This document shows positions 11,578-15,754 of a DNA stretch of 23,134 nt, piece by piece (position 1 is the first letter of the stretch; each line of letters starts with the position of its first letter). The stretch spans positions 1-23,134 of IMG/VR virus record IMGVR_UViG_3300045533_000028. The stretch is one strand, 5' to 3'. Made by a program: the position numbers and the translations under genes. Below the pieces are notes generated by a model, which saw nothing but the letters and a program-made list of their open reading frames with translations, did not search any database and had not been told where the DNA came from. Origin of the DNA: a virus.

Positions 11578-11608
11578 CAAATATACTATTTAATTTTTAT
11601 TTAACAAA
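11578..11608 (-). promoter_or_regulatory. Strong Bacteroidetes-type promoter
   Basis: On the minus strand TTTG (11608-11605), 19 nt and TATATTTG (11585-11578) match both boxes of the consensus. The upstream box lies within the end of the glycosyltransferase gene. The promoter faces the 112-aa gene and on toward the terminase genes, marking a likely boundary between the glycan cassette and the late genes. Confidence 0.65.
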
Positions 11609-12537
11609 GTATTTATTATCTGACATCTTAATTCGTAACTCTTTTGCATCGTGTAATCCTTAGCGTAATCTTGTAAACCTAATGCATATTCATTCCTTTG
11701 ATGTTCACTTCTTATAAGTAGTTCAATAGCCTTACGCCACTCTTTCGCACCATTAACTCTTAAGCCTTGATATTGTTTAACATCTGAGTAAGTTCCTCCA
11801 TTGGTTATGATTGGAATTGCACTTGCAGCACTCTCTAATAGTTTAAGATTAGATTTGCATGATGTATATAGGTCATCATAACTCGGTAGCAATGCAAAGT
11901 CAATCAGTCCATACATATCCATATAGTCGTCTACTTCCACCGCCTCAAATACTTTAACTTGATGTTGCCAATTTCCACTCCATATTCGTTGTAGGTGTTC
12001 CCAATATTCAGGTACATAACCTGATGCCCCACCTAATACTCTACTCGCTTTATATTTGTGAAATAAAGGAATAGCCAATAGTCTATGGTCTAAGTGATGG
12101 CTAAGTGTTCCTATCCACCCAAATGATAACTCATGTTCAACTTGAGTGCCTCCTGTGGTTATTGCATTGTGAACTAATATTGATTGAATATTAAACTGAC
12201 GATATAGTTCATCTCTTAACTTCTTACTTGCCGTTGTAACGATGTCTGCGTTTTTCAGGTGTGCAATTATGTTTGATGTTATTTCAGCCTCATTAGGTTG
12301 TCTGTTTAAATGCCACAAAGGTCTTTCTACCCAATCATCTATATCTACCCATACCTTTGAACCTTTAATTTGAAGTTCTTTTATTGATTGTAAACTTTGA
12401 TGTATGCCTCTTACATTGTAAACTATGATGTCCTCAGGTTCGGTTACTTGAGCCACAAAGTCCACTTTAAAGTATTGAAAGGGATTGAATAGTCTGTGAT
12501 AATTAACCCCTTGCGATTGACCTAATATTATTTTCAT
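11590..12537 (-). CDS. Glycosyltransferase, GT-B (GT4-like)
   Basis: This 315-aa protein shows a GT-B layout: an N-terminal Rossmann part beginning MKIILGQSQGVNYHRLFNPF, a KVWVDIDDWVERPLW segment, NADIVTTASKKLRDELY, a middle FGWIGTLSHHLDHRLL that opens the nucleotide-sugar half, and a C-terminal SNLKLLESAASAIPIITNGG with the conserved Glu-containing motif of GT4 enzymes. It should transfer a sugar from a nucleotide donor to an unknown acceptor. ATG 12537 is preferred over a TTG three codons upstream because it overlaps the stop of a 33-codon gene (TAATG). The gene closes the methyltransferase/glycosyltransferase cassette. Confidence 0.8.
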   Translation of the reverse strand: MKIILGQSQGVNYHRLFNPFQYFKVDFVAQVTEPEDIIVYNVRGIHQSLQSIKELQIKGSKVWVDIDDWVERPLWHLNRQPNEAEITSNIIAHLKNADIVTTASKKLRDELYRQFNIQSILVHNAITTGGTQVEHELSFGWIGTLSHHLDHRLLAIPLFHKYKASRVLGGASGYVPEYWEHLQRIWSGNWQHQVKVFEAVEVDDYMDMYGLIDFALLPSYDDLYTSCKSNLKLLESAASAIPIITNGGTYSDVKQYQGLRVNGAKEWRKAIELLIRSEHQRNEYALGLQDYAKDYTMQKSYELRCQIINTLLNKN

Positions 12538-12638
12538 TATTCCCAAATATATTTAATCATTAATACAACCATAAATACATAAGCTATACAACAAGTATAA
12601 CCTAAAGAATATCCTAATTTTTTTTTAATATACTTCAT
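12537..12638 (-). CDS. 33-aa single-span membrane peptide
   Basis: The frame runs from ATG 12638 to TAA 12537-12539 and encodes MKYIKKKLGYSLGYTCCIAY followed by VFMVVLMIKYIWE. A basic N-terminus precedes one hydrophobic span (about residues 9-29), so it should insert in the inner membrane. The stop overlaps the glycosyltransferase ATG by one base (TAATG) and the start overlaps the phosphoesterase end by 14 nt, as other operon genes do. The role is unknown; small membrane partners of envelope enzymes, or holin-like peptides, are possibilities. Confidence 0.55.
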   Translation of the reverse strand: MKYIKKKLGYSLGYTCCIAYVFMVVLMIKYIWE

Positions 12639-13617
12639 AAGTGTTTTGGTCTATTCTTTTATTCTCTACTCTATAATTTCCATTCTCTTGAACTATCACT
12701 CTCGCAAATCCTAAGTTATGTTTGCAGTTGAACGGGTCATAGTTAGGTGCTAAGGTGCATAAACAAGCTACTGAATAAGTTGTATTCAAGTCGCCTTGCA
12801 AATTGCTCTCACTATGTTCAGATGTTGTATGACAATGACCGATAAGCATTGAACCTTTAATCTTGTTATACACTCCCTTTGCAGGATTAACGGGACTAAA
12901 GAAACCTTTTACAATCATGTGACCATGTGTCACAGGTAGCTTGCCAATCATTAATACATTTGTTTGAGGTATCCAAACTATTCCTTTCTCTCTTAACTTT
13001 AACCTTGCTGATAGTGTATAGTATTGGTCGTTAAATAGTACGGGTGCTTTTTTCATTAGATACCTCATATACCAATTATCGTGATTACCCTCTACATAAT
13101 ATATCGGACACTTGAACTCACTTATTAACATATCAAGAAAGTCCTCAGTCATCTGAAACCAATCTCTTACATCACTTGTATTTGGTGGTGGTGCATCGTG
13201 ATTTGTAAATGGTTCGTTGTCGAGTAAATCCCCGTTAATAACTATGCAATTAATCTTATTAGTCTTACCATATTCAAGTGCCTTACCTAATGCCTCAACA
13301 TCGTGATTAGGGAAATGTATGTCACTAATTATTAAAACATTGTTACACTCTTTTGGTAAGTCAACAAACTTTCTTTTTTCGCCTTTACTTTGCGGTAAGT
13401 TGTACTGAGTAATGTGGTCAGGGTTATGGTCAACTCTTTTATTATGTCGTCTGTCTTTACCTTTTGAACCACAAACATCTCTAACTATTGCCCTTGTATT
13501 TTCGAAGTCGTCAAAGATAGCAGGGTAAGTTTCTAACAAGTAACGGACTATTGCATTTTTACTTAGTTTAGGAAACTCTAACAGAGTCTTAATTGCTATA
13601 TCTCTTTTTTTAGCCAT
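12625..13617 (-). CDS. Calcineurin-like metallophosphoesterase with N-terminal HTH
   Basis: This 330-aa protein has all five motifs of the metallophosphoesterase fold: D99-I-H101, GD130LLD133, GNH179D180, TH231GH233 and GH261CH263. These bind a two-metal centre that hydrolyses phosphomono- or diesters. The first ~50 residues (AIKTLLEFPKLSKNAIVRYL) look like a helix-turn-helix or terminase-like DNA-binding segment, a layout known for phage-encoded phosphoesterases. The substrate is unknown: nucleic acid ends, nucleotides or a glycan phosphate are all possible. Its leader carries the tRNA-like element, whose 3' end is about 15 nt before ATG 13617. Confidence 0.85.
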   Translation of the reverse strand: MAKKRDIAIKTLLEFPKLSKNAIVRYLLETYPAIFDDFENTRAIVRDVCGSKGKDRRHNKRVDHNPDHITQYNLPQSKGEKRKFVDLPKECNNVLIISDIHFPNHDVEALGKALEYGKTNKINCIVINGDLLDNEPFTNHDAPPPNTSDVRDWFQMTEDFLDMLISEFKCPIYYVEGNHDNWYMRYLMKKAPVLFNDQYYTLSARLKLREKGIVWIPQTNVLMIGKLPVTHGHMIVKGFFSPVNPAKGVYNKIKGSMLIGHCHTTSEHSESNLQGDLNTTYSVACLCTLAPNYDPFNCKHNLGFARVIVQENGNYRVENKRIDQNTYEVY

Positions 13618-13632
13618 AATGTTTTTATTTAG

Positions 13633-13697
13633 ATGTCAATACGAGACTCGAACTCGTATTCCAACAAAGTTGGGTGTTGCCATTACACTAATTGACA
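13633..13697 (-). tRNA. tRNA-like element with truncated anticodon arm
   Basis: Read on the minus strand it folds as a cloverleaf: 7-bp acceptor TGTCAAT/ATTGACA (extendable to 9 bp, 13699 and 13632), U8-A9 as TA, D arm GTGT-AATGGCA-ACAC with the conserved A14 and GG, and T arm ACGAG-TTCGAGT-CTCGT with a perfect TTCRANY loop. The anticodon arm is only CCAAC-TTT-GTTGG: a 5-bp stem with a 3-nt loop, no base 26 and a 3-nt variable region. Total length is 65 nt instead of 72-76. No CCA is encoded. A 7-nt loop needs a 3-bp stem and then position 33 is C, so it cannot be a standard decoder. It resembles Bacteroidetes tRNA-Gln in the D arm (recollection). Confidence 0.6.
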
Positions 13698-13706
13698 TCG
13701 CTTTTA

Positions 13707-13736
13707 CAAATATAATTAAATTCTTTTAAAAACAAA
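13707..13736 (-). promoter_or_regulatory. Promoter directly upstream of the tRNA-like element
   Basis: TTTG (13736-13733), 18 nt and TATATTTG (13714-13707) on the minus strand. Starts usually lie a few nucleotides after the TTTG, so RNA would begin almost exactly at the 5' end of the cloverleaf (13697-13699). The upstream box lies in the last codons of the preceding methyltransferase gene. Confidence 0.6.
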
Positions 13737-14297
13737 TAAAGTATTTCTAAACCAATGTGCTTTATCTTCTATTACTGACCTTGCATCTTCGGTTTCTTTT
13801 TCCATTAATTCAAAACCTCTCTTTTCAAACTCAGGTATTATTTCGTGGTTATCTAAGCAGTTGACATGACCGAAACCCTCTTGACCTCTTACTGCCCATG
13901 ATGTTATTAAGTACTCTTTAGTGTGTTTAGTTATGTTGTCTAAGTAAATAGACATAAAATATTTAGGGATGTGTTCGCCAACTTCAAGACTAATTGATAA
14001 ATCACTTTCATATAACTTAAATCCCTCTATTGTAGTTGTTAAATCTTTCTCAACTATATTGTCATAAACCGCTTGTTTAGGTTTATTTCCCTCAACTCCT
14101 AAAATATAAACCCAATTACCAAAGTAATCATTAATGTCTTTACAATATTGCCCTAATCCACAACCATAATCTACTACACTCAGTTGTCCATTTTCTCGCA
14201 TAAAGTTACAAATCCACTCACTTAACTTCTCTGAGTGTACATGGTGGTGGTGTGCGGTTTCGCCATTCCAAAAACCTGTTTTTGATATTTCGCTCAT
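13716..14297 (-). CDS. Class I SAM-dependent methyltransferase, 193 aa
   Basis: Motif I is VVDYGCGLGQYC (residues 41-52), the glycine-rich SAM-binding loop; an acidic VEGN follows (the post-I ribose contact), then LEVGEHIPK as motif IV-like. The segment EYLITSWAVRGQEGFGHVN resembles phage methyltransferases found beside glycosyltransferases. A HHHHVH stretch near residues 16-21 is unusual. The acceptor is unknown; sugar O-methylation is suggested by the neighbours. The ATG overlaps the stop of the preceding methyltransferase gene (ATGA). Confidence 0.8.
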   Translation of the reverse strand: MSEISKTGFWNGETAHHHHVHSEKLSEWICNFMRENGQLSVVDYGCGLGQYCKDINDYFGNWVYILGVEGNKPKQAVYDNIVEKDLTTTIEGFKLYESDLSISLEVGEHIPKYFMSIYLDNITKHTKEYLITSWAVRGQEGFGHVNCLDNHEIIPEFEKRGFELMEKETEDARSVIEDKAHWFRNTLFVFKRI

Positions 14298-14881
14298 AAT
14301 CTGTTAATATAAATAAACCAACAATCATTCTCTACTTTGTGAGGTGTGCCAAATATTTCTGTGACTGCTTTATTAACTCCCTCCCATGCGTGAAAGTCAT
14401 GACCTGACATTATTCCATTAGGTTTCATTTTAGGTAGCCACGCCTCAATGTCTTTTATAACGGCCTCTCTGCTGTGGCCTGCATCGACGAATAAAACATC
14501 AACTGAATTATCATCAAAGTATTGTGCAGCCTTATGTGATAATGAAACAATCGTTTTAATCTTATTGCCTATTAGTGATACATTGTAAGTATAACTTTCT
14601 TCTATTTCTGAGATGCCCTCGTATGCTTTTATCTCGTTTGCATCCGTTGAATTAGTCGCACCTTGAAAACTATCAATAGCAAAAAAGTTTATATCCCTTT
14701 TTTGTTTGTGGATTTCAACACCAATAAATGAAGTTGACTTACCTTTGTAACAACCTAACTCTACAAATGTACCACCCTCAGGCGTTGCATCAAGTAGTTC
14801 TAAGTATTGTTTTTCCATGTTGAACCACCCCTCAACTAAGTGATAGTAATGTTCTATTTTTTTAAATCTTTTATTTGCCAT
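14294..14881 (-). CDS. Class I SAM-dependent methyltransferase (Methyltransf_24-like), 195 aa
   Basis: From ATG 14881 (MANKRFKKIEHYYHLVEGWF) the protein has motif I TFVELGCYKGKST (residues 38-50), a following FAIDSFQG acidic strand end, and the diagnostic VDVLFVDAGHSREAVIKDI, as in the Methyltransf_24 family that often acts on sugars in polysaccharide loci. This start overlaps the 64-aa gene by 11 nt; a longer frame back to 14935 would overlap that gene by 65 nt and adds residues without a domain, so I prefer 14881. The 3' end overlaps the next methyltransferase by 4 nt. The two are not obviously duplicates. Confidence 0.8.
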   Translation of the reverse strand: MANKRFKKIEHYYHLVEGWFNMEKQYLELLDATPEGGTFVELGCYKGKSTSFIGVEIHKQKRDINFFAIDSFQGATNSTDANEIKAYEGISEIEESYTYNVSLIGNKIKTIVSLSHKAAQYFDDNSVDVLFVDAGHSREAVIKDIEAWLPKMKPNGIMSGHDFHAWEGVNKAVTEIFGTPHKVENDCWFIYINRL

Positions 14882-15065
14882 AAGTTTCTTTGTAATATTC
14901 TTCTCCATCGTGGTTACTATCTCCACCATAAGCACTATCCCAAGCCATTTCTATTTGAAATTGTTCCATTTCTTTTGCTTGTTCTAATATTGCGTTCCAA
15001 GTTAGTTTATCTTTAGGACTATCCCAAAGTTTTTCAAATAGATATTCTGTTGCGGTTTGTTTCAT
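14871..15065 (-). CDS. Small conserved phage/Bacteroidetes protein, 64 aa
   Basis: This 64-aa helical protein, MKQTATEYLFEKLWDSPKDK at the start with EQAKEMEQFQIEMAWDSAY and an EEYYKETYG end, matches a small family I recall from many Bacteroidetes phages and genomes; its function is unknown. It is acidic, soluble and without a membrane segment. It overlaps the preceding glycosyltransferase stop by 4 nt (ATGA) and the following methyltransferase by 11 nt. Confidence 0.75.
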   Translation of the reverse strand: MKQTATEYLFEKLWDSPKDKLTWNAILEQAKEMEQFQIEMAWDSAYGGDSNHDGEEYYKETYGK

Positions 15066-15754
15066 CTTATTATTTTTGCTATGTTTAATGTATTTTTATA
15101 TTCCTCTCTTATTCTCCATTCCTCTTGTTCGTAATGGTAACCCCACCTCATTTGTTTATTTTCATCTGATAACCTACTTGCATAACTCTTATACTTGTTT
15201 ACTAATAAGTCAACATTAATAAATTTCATGTGGCACAATTTCGGTCTTACACTTGAAAATATTACATCGCCAATCGGTTCAGCATGATGGCAACCTGCAC
15301 CATAGTTAATCTCCTTAATGTACTTCTTATTAAAGCAAACTATTTTATCATATTGCTTAGCCTCAACTCCATGTCTAATATTACATACATCGTCTGTATT
15401 ATCCACATTGCACATATTATATCCTTTACTTTCGAATAGTGTTTGATTAGTGTTTAAGTCTTTAGATGTTATATCCAAAAACTCGTCAGCATCACAAACT
15501 ATTACCCAATCTGTTTCAGCGTGTTTCCATGCGTTATTCTTAATCTTTAGATAGGTAGAGTCACTTAGTTTATTTCCCGTGTGATAAGGTATGTAAGTCA
15601 AGTTAGGAGTTGATAAACAAATGTTCTTAGTGCCATCGGTTGACTCATTGTCATACACTACTATCTTGCAATCAGGAAATCTATCACGATACCACTTGAT
15701 GAAGTGAGGTAAGATAAACTCTTCGTTATATGTGATTACTATTATGGTTATCAT
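15062..15754 (-). CDS. GT2-type glycosyltransferase
   Basis: This 230-aa protein starts MITIIVITYNEEFILPHFIK, the classic GT-A entry strand, followed by VVYDNESTDGT (nucleotide-sugar contact) and WVIVCDADEFLDI, whose DAD (residues 88-90) is the DXD-type metal-binding motif. The YGAGCHHAEPIG and KLCHMKF segments are typical of GT2/GT92-like enzymes that use a metal and an NDP-sugar. It should add a sugar to an acceptor, perhaps a virion protein, DNA base or host surface glycan. Ends are linked by ATGA overlap to the 64-aa gene. Confidence 0.82.
   Translation of the reverse strand: MITIIVITYNEEFILPHFIKWYRDRFPDCKIVVYDNESTDGTKNICLSTPNLTYIPYHTGNKLSDSTYLKIKNNAWKHAETDWVIVCDADEFLDITSKDLNTNQTLFESKGYNMCNVDNTDDVCNIRHGVEAKQYDKIVCFNKKYIKEINYGAGCHHAEPIGDVIFSSVRPKLCHMKFINVDLLVNKYKSYASRLSDENKQMRWGYHYEQEEWRIREEYKNTLNIAKIIR

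Follow-up and report, generated by a model that had tools for sequence, protein, structure and literature searches.

What is a tRNA cloverleaf with an anticodon loop of only three nucleotides doing between a promoter and the start codon of a phage gene? The question is raised by a stretch of 23,134 nucleotides from IMG/VR virus record IMGVR_UViG_3300045533_000028, which we analysed as a whole and refer to as the window. The answer that we favor, and on which our judgement is evenly balanced, is that the element is a cis-acting, tRNA-shaped 5' leader of the metallophosphoesterase mRNA that serves tRNA-maturation enzymes, 5' protection, or both, and not decoding. The features on which the argument turns are the following.

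13716..14297, minus strand: upstream gene for a 193-aa protein, methyltransferase-like only by sequence reading
13707..13736, minus strand: promoter of the Bacteroidota type, TTTG-N18-TATATTTG, with TTTG and TAnnTTTG boxes at standard spacing
13632..13699, minus strand: tRNA-like element with a collapsed anticodon arm, supported by its sequence, the Rfam tRNA family, model R1 and relatives
13674..13688, minus strand: D arm, GTGT-AATGGCA-ACAC, read from the sequence, with a 4-bp stem, A14 and G18G19
13661..13673, minus strand: collapsed anticodon arm, CCAAC-TTT-GTTGG, read from the sequence, 13 nt against the usual 17
13641..13657, minus strand: T arm, ACGAG-TTCGAGT-CTCGT, read from the sequence, with a 5-bp stem
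13618..13631, minus strand: A/U-rich leader TAAATAAAAACATT, from the element to the start codon
12625..13617, minus strand: downstream gene for a 330-aa metallophosphoesterase (calcineurin-like; Pfam PF00149, 1.1e-11; PHROG 221, 8.8e-30)

The cloverleaf and its shortened arm

A preliminary description of this locus, which gave no strand, had proposed a tRNA-like cloverleaf with a collapsed anticodon arm, 65 nt in total, whose acceptor could extend to 9 bp. Direct reading finds every named part and bears out both measurements on the minus strand, from 13699 to 13632. In the 5' to 3' direction the element begins with GA, the acceptor strand TGTCAAT (13697-13691) and T8 A9; AAT links the collapsed anticodon arm to the T arm, and the 3' acceptor half ATTGACA (13640-13634) is followed by T73 and C74 (13633-13632). 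The acceptor has 7 bp, or 9 bp when A-1:U73 and G-2:C74 are counted, and the length is 65 nt from position 1 to 73, or 68 nt with the two extra pairs. The elbow is typical of tRNA, with U8, A14, G18G19 in the D loop and a T loop of the form TTCRANN. A decoding tRNA carries its anticodon in a 7-nt loop on a 5-bp stem; here the loop has 3 nt, and base 26 is absent.

Covariance models recognize this fold when they are applied sensitively. In a relaxed scan of a 171-base stretch, Rfam tRNA (RF00005) scored 44 bits against a gathering score of 29 (E 1.2e-8), and it was the sole family reported up to an E of 10, in a listing that does not display weaker overlapping matches of the same clan, such as mascRNA-menRNA might give. 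Our model R1 gives 69.8 bits, a score to be read with the window sequence being part of the R1 training set. ARAGORN did not call the element in the window, and a whole-window Rfam scan with the gathering threshold and fast filters missed it; we regard both misses as limits of the tools, the element being nonetheless present. Neither ARAGORN nor Rfam matched a tmRNA in the window. With a strict cloverleaf scanner, the window yields a single perfect 7/4/5-bp element, and 400 dinucleotide-shuffled windows yield none. The folding energy of the element is -21.3 kcal/mol (z -3.3), and of five relatives folded on their own, three reach a less stable or a different structure.

The 3' end of a tRNA is a common component of phage attachment sites, and the element could accordingly be taken for the attP core of an integrase with a host tRNA gene as its target. 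Yet both halves of the cloverleaf are present here; the 22-nt 3' part has no match with up to two mismatches in 199 Flavobacteriaceae genomes, among which the host need not be included; and no integrase was noticed among the open reading frames of the window, itself a fragment. We consider an attachment site highly improbable.

The promoter and the related phages

The promoter lies close to the element. The upstream gene reaches with its 3' end into the -33 box, and the promoter ends 7 nt before G13699, the base at position -2 (5-7 nt in relatives). The bare promoter pattern is not rare in the window, where it occurs six times against 1.7 expected. A similar TTTG/TAnnTTTG promoter nevertheless stands at or near the same place in almost every relative that a search with the upstream gene recovered, and it is retained whatever comes next, be it the element, a bare gene, or a different small RNA (L209-L212, L218). 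The preliminary description had given the element a promoter of its own with a start at the element's 5' end; the promoter is found and is kept in relatives, while the start is a matter of geometry. Because that geometry is known for Bacteroidota, the probable start of transcription is the cloverleaf's 5' end or a position adjacent to it. At the other end, the leader of 13618..13631 is predicted to be unpaired (mean unpaired probability 0.92).

The upstream 193-aa protein has no Pfam or PHROGs match, and the metallophosphoesterase has only distant homologues in named phages, at less than 40% identity. In the window, a block at positions 11590-15754, between terminase and replication genes, combines the metallophosphoesterase gene with two glycosyltransferase-like genes and one for a methyltransferase of the Methyltransf_24 type; it may be a cassette for modifying the surface or DNA. 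The small RNA that follows the promoter in L209-L212 and L218 is putative, about 80 nt long and located within about 150 nt of the end of the upstream-gene match; a hairpin with compensated changes (CTTGCC-GCAAT-GGCAGG and CTTACC-GCAAT-GGTAGG) is followed in it by a terminator-like hairpin that has a T run. It seems that this one promoter slot is occupied by different small RNAs from phage to phage.

We read the sequence upstream of the start codon in the closest IMG/VR homologues of the metallophosphoesterase. The element is at the same place in L002, L003/L004, L005, L006, L007 and L009, and it is cleanly absent from L008 and L010, in which the promoter is followed by ATG 4 nt later. The element is dispensable, since L008 and L010 have both promoter and gene without any leader between them; their metallophosphoesterase mRNA, with TATATTTG 4 nt before the ATG, is probably leaderless. 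Where the element is present, its anticodon arm (CCAACTTAGCTTGG, CCAACAAGATTGG, CCAACAAGATTGT, CCAACAAGTTTGT) measures 13-14 nt, with loops of 3, 5 or 6 nt. A normal 7-nt loop, which would have reduced the oddity to a local deletion in the window, occurs in none of these relatives; a one-off deletion is ruled out by the short arm being present at the same place in related phages. None of the ten loci tested in this family was called by ARAGORN.

Among these relatives the fold is conserved. L002 has a compensatory G-C to A-U change in the D stem, and two pairs of the T stem are changed on both sides in relatives. Across the six distinct sequences, 96% of cells pair, one pair of the D stem and two of the T stem have changed on both sides, and the covariation score of 0.176 is above all 500 shuffles (0.115 +/- 0.019), evidence that is modest because the sequences are close. 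The element is 81-87% identical between window and relatives, compared with 57-69% at fourfold-degenerate sites of the next gene, which indicates that it is conserved under purifying selection and not drifting. An A-C mismatch in the T stem of L003, L006 and L009 shows that the constraint is not absolute, and an arm pair is broken in L005 and L006.

Such flaws, the complete loss in L008 and L010, and the poor acceptors of certain jumbo-phage array members described below speak for a non-functional tRNA relic in slow decay, close to the decayed tRNA that had been suggested at the outset. The compensatory changes and the excess of conservation over fourfold sites argue against decay, as does the fact that unrelated phages have such elements too, at a distance from start codons that varies little, and we judge a relic to be quite improbable. 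A decoy for anticodon nucleases, also suggested then, is unlikely because the loop itself is missing and what is left drifts freely in sequence and length.

The closeness of the promoter is also compatible with a purely structural role, in which a blunt, uncleaved 9-bp cloverleaf at the 5' terminus would shield the mRNA from 5'-end-dependent decay and hold the start site open, with no tRNA enzyme involved. The 5-7 nt spacing in window and relatives, the persistence of the outermost acceptor pair as G-C, G-U or A-U, and the leader that is predicted to be open all accord with it. However, any hairpin would suffice for this purpose, so that the conserved G18G19, A14, U8 and TTCGANT loop go unexplained, as do families with no promoter directly upstream. 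As an account of the element we hold it possible but unlikely, and the tRNA-shaped leader addressed to maturation enzymes remains our preferred reading.

Collapsed elements in other phages

The plan of the element, with acceptor, D and T arms intact and the anticodon arm shortened, is found again in phage families that are unrelated to one another. An exact-pattern scan found at least 119 stretches in viral contigs with a shortened middle between conserved D and T arms. A stricter pattern, identical for both collections, matched 57 stretches in viral contigs against 17 in 84,980 prokaryotic genomes (257 Gb), raw counts that are not normalised by the size of the viral collection, and some of the 17 belong to tRNA arrays or to regions that resemble prophages (as in Flavobacterium davisii 90-106, L226). 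Another 73 stretches have a second type of D arm; the shortening is therefore not tied to one tRNA lineage. Many matches have 7/7 acceptor and 5/5 T-stem pairs, neither of which was part of the pattern. The matches are of two kinds. In one, the acceptor is perfect and the element mostly solitary; the other comprises members of tRNA arrays in jumbo phages, which have poorer acceptors and look like degenerate tRNAs. In a model search of 149 Flavobacteriaceae genomes, the sole collapsed match was the prophage-like region of Flavobacterium davisii, and the other three matches all looked like normal-length tRNAs. Other collapsed families score 37.6-47.9 bits with Rfam tRNA. Searches of INPHARED by blastn with the element, L091 and L086 returned only chance or generic tRNA pieces. 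Pairing at -1:73 and the presence of C74 were rejected as markers of the class, since they also occur in normal phage tRNAs (62% and 91%, respectively), and -2:74 pairing is mostly confined to the window family.

An independent family (L086, L309, L160, L310, L110, L108, L087) lies upstream of a gene for a membrane protein of 85-95 aa that has no match in named phages. Nine pairs are changed on both sides, 98.6% of cells pair, and covariation reaches 0.454 against 0.196 +/- 0.031 in shuffled alignments, a signal that is lost when the partners are slid; as read from these sequences, the covariation evidence is better than that of the window's own family. Acceptor, T stem and anticodon stem vary by compensation and the D arm is nearly invariant, while the anticodon loop, on a 4-bp stem, has 4, 5, 6 or 7 nt. 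Stems that compensate while loop length drifts indicate that decoding is not the property being kept, and with loops of 3, 5 or 6 nt at the window site, we read the element as not serving in decoding.

Two further groups of phage tRNA-like sequences deserve mention beside this class. In the phage tRNA-like genes L240, L243, L245, L273, L301, L303 and L308, the D arm is a standard TAGCTCAG, only 10-13 nt separate the D stem from the T stem, and the anticodon stem is nearly gone. L105, L124 and L175 belong to tRNA arrays, encode CCA and share a conserved anticodon arm of 15 nt, GGTCCGTATACAACC; they may be odd but functional tRNAs and not mimics.

What collapsed elements share beyond the fold is their placement. 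In at least seven families a start codon lies 11-21 nt past the discriminator base. Counted from position 73 in families of the Bacteroidota type, the distance is 13-15 nt in the window family, 13-14 nt in the L086 family, 16 nt in L091 (with which L107 and L126 are grouped in this set), 18 nt in L168/L226, 19 nt in L109/L225 and 15 nt in L195; in L163/L186 it is 11 nt, with CCA also encoded, and in L123/L153 the start codon of a conserved 45-aa open reading frame follows after 21 nt. The genes thus preceded are unrelated: the metallophosphoesterase, membrane proteins, a 600-aa protein that reads as replication-type from its sequence, and short unknowns. We compared a core class, with 14-16 nt between D and T stems, with normal-length phage tRNAs from the same loci. 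An ATG-started open reading frame of at least 60 codons within 60 nt follows 56% of the core class and 13% of normal-length tRNAs, 31% and 81% lie in a tRNA array, and CCA is encoded in 3% and 50%, percentages whose counts include mutual relatives and are to be read by family. The rule has exceptions: several of the solitary collapsed elements have no start codon close by (L128, L133, L391, L401); elements with Shine-Dalgarno-like leaders (L391, L398, L401, L393) lie further from it, at 32-83 nt; and a few solitary ones lack a gene start nearby.

At one site in crAss-like phages, the collapsed form is interchangeable with normal tRNAs. L195, from a crAss-like phage, has its collapsed element 15 nt before the ATG of a short gene. 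Before the same gene, tRNA-Trp ends 15 nt from the ATG in cr111_1, tRNA-His 20 nt in cr116_1 and 21 nt in L356, and tRNA-Met(CAU) 13 nt in L368; cr130_1/L367 and L366 have the 3' half of a tRNA only, cr131_1/L363 and L361 an odd unannotated tRNA-like sequence further upstream, and crAss002 and most other homologues no tRNA upstream. That tRNAs of varied identity, halves and collapsed forms swap at one site fits a processing or leader role and not decoding. As a separate observation, only the T arm and 3' acceptor half precede the short VanZ-like gene in cr130_1 (L346 1150-1440) and L366, and in cr130_1 an HNH-like coding stretch stands directly in front of the remnant, which looks like the insertion of a homing endonuclease into a tRNA.

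These data also bear on whether the element might be a free, trans-acting small RNA that is co-transcribed with the downstream gene only incidentally and binds a target such as RNase P, RNase Z, EF-Tu, a modification enzyme or a toxin directed at the acceptor. In its favor are the promoter of its own, the other small RNA with a terminator-like hairpin in the same slot (L209-L212, L218), and the presence of one element per small phage record; phage records of the window, L086 and L091 types mostly have no other model match, which we also count in favor of the cis-acting leader. Against this, families differ from one another in acceptor sequence, in the discriminator and at C74, collapsed elements hardly ever encode CCA, and spacing to the start codon is constrained even though the downstream genes are unrelated. 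We consider a trans-acting RNA unlikely. Of the earlier proposals, a mimic that acts on processing enzymes fits best, in cis as the leader of the next gene and not as a free inhibitor.

A proposed tRNA-shaped leader and its parallels

How might such a leader work? The stack of acceptor and T arm, together with the elbow of D and T loops, would imitate a pre-tRNA. RNase Z would recognize the mimic at its 3' side, and wherever a longer transcript encloses the element, RNase P could do so at its 5' side. Cleavage would then set the message apart or trim it; a short stretch of open leader, about 13-20 nt, would remain in front of the start codon, with a possible effect on expression. Because recognition of this kind would not need the anticodon arm, the arm could have eroded to a stub. 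In the window family, where transcription would start at the 5' end of the cloverleaf, the element may also cap the 5' end. There the promoter already sets the 5' end at the element, which would make a 5' cut superfluous, and pairing at -1:73 and -2:74 should weaken normal cleavage by RNase P and RNase Z; both points favor a 5'-cap role for the window family. We regard that role as a serious alternative, and since both roles act in cis, they could coexist.

The closest parallel is found in mascRNA and menRNA, from the ends of MALAT1 and MEN-beta, in which RNase P and RNase Z cut by recognizing the elbow of a tRNA-like fold with a compact anticodon-equivalent loop, mascRNA not being aminoacylated (PMC11693755). 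The phage elements likewise combine a tRNA-like fold, a compact loop and an intact elbow, would lie, judged from fold and gene context, within a longer transcript, and do not serve in decoding. In contrast, mascRNA and menRNA are eukaryotic, lie at the 3' ends of long non-coding RNAs and have a reduced D arm, whereas the phage elements lie on the 5' side of coding genes and have a complete one; cleavage, established for the former, is what we infer for the latter.

Other systems resemble the phage elements in part. In animal mitochondria, tRNAs between genes set mRNA ends through RNase P and RNase Z; a tRNA shape bounds messages there, as it may in the phages, although the punctuating tRNAs still decode, as the phage elements cannot. 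The TMER units of murine gammaherpesvirus 68 are viral tRNA-like sequences that serve as processing and promoter modules outside translation, but they give rise to viral microRNAs in a eukaryotic host and have no role as mRNA leaders. Ordinary phage tRNA genes, including those of crAss-like arrays, share the fold, the elbow bases and the 3' flanks, and may occupy the same slot 13-21 nt before a gene, yet they have a normal 17-nt anticodon arm, usually stand in arrays and are less often adjacent to a start codon. A tRNA-like domain without a decoding anticodon loop is also found in tmRNA, which, however, lacks a proper D stem and has an mRNA-like tag frame that is absent from the phage element.

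We found no description of anticodon-collapsed tRNA-like leaders in phages in the open-access literature that we searched, nor are they described in the sections consulted of a review of non-canonical tRNAs (PMC7609411) and of a paper on tRNA fragments (PMC9897764). Judged from that literature and from the absence of the elements from tool annotation, the class appears to be undescribed. Since such elements escape ARAGORN, they are probably missing from phage annotation, to which a simple covariance model could add them.

Somewhat more tentatively than for the element itself, we propose that tRNA mimics without an anticodon form a widespread, previously unannotated class of cis-acting RNAs in phages, that they delimit messages and prepare translation from start codons 11-21 nt downstream, and that they have been exapted repeatedly from phage tRNAs. 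If this is true, it would provide a prokaryotic parallel to mascRNA and to mitochondrial tRNA punctuation, and it would explain why some phage tRNAs stand alone or are degenerate and why genes are found nested within phage tRNA arrays. Phages would then be using the shape of a tRNA as a processing handle that is independent of decoding.
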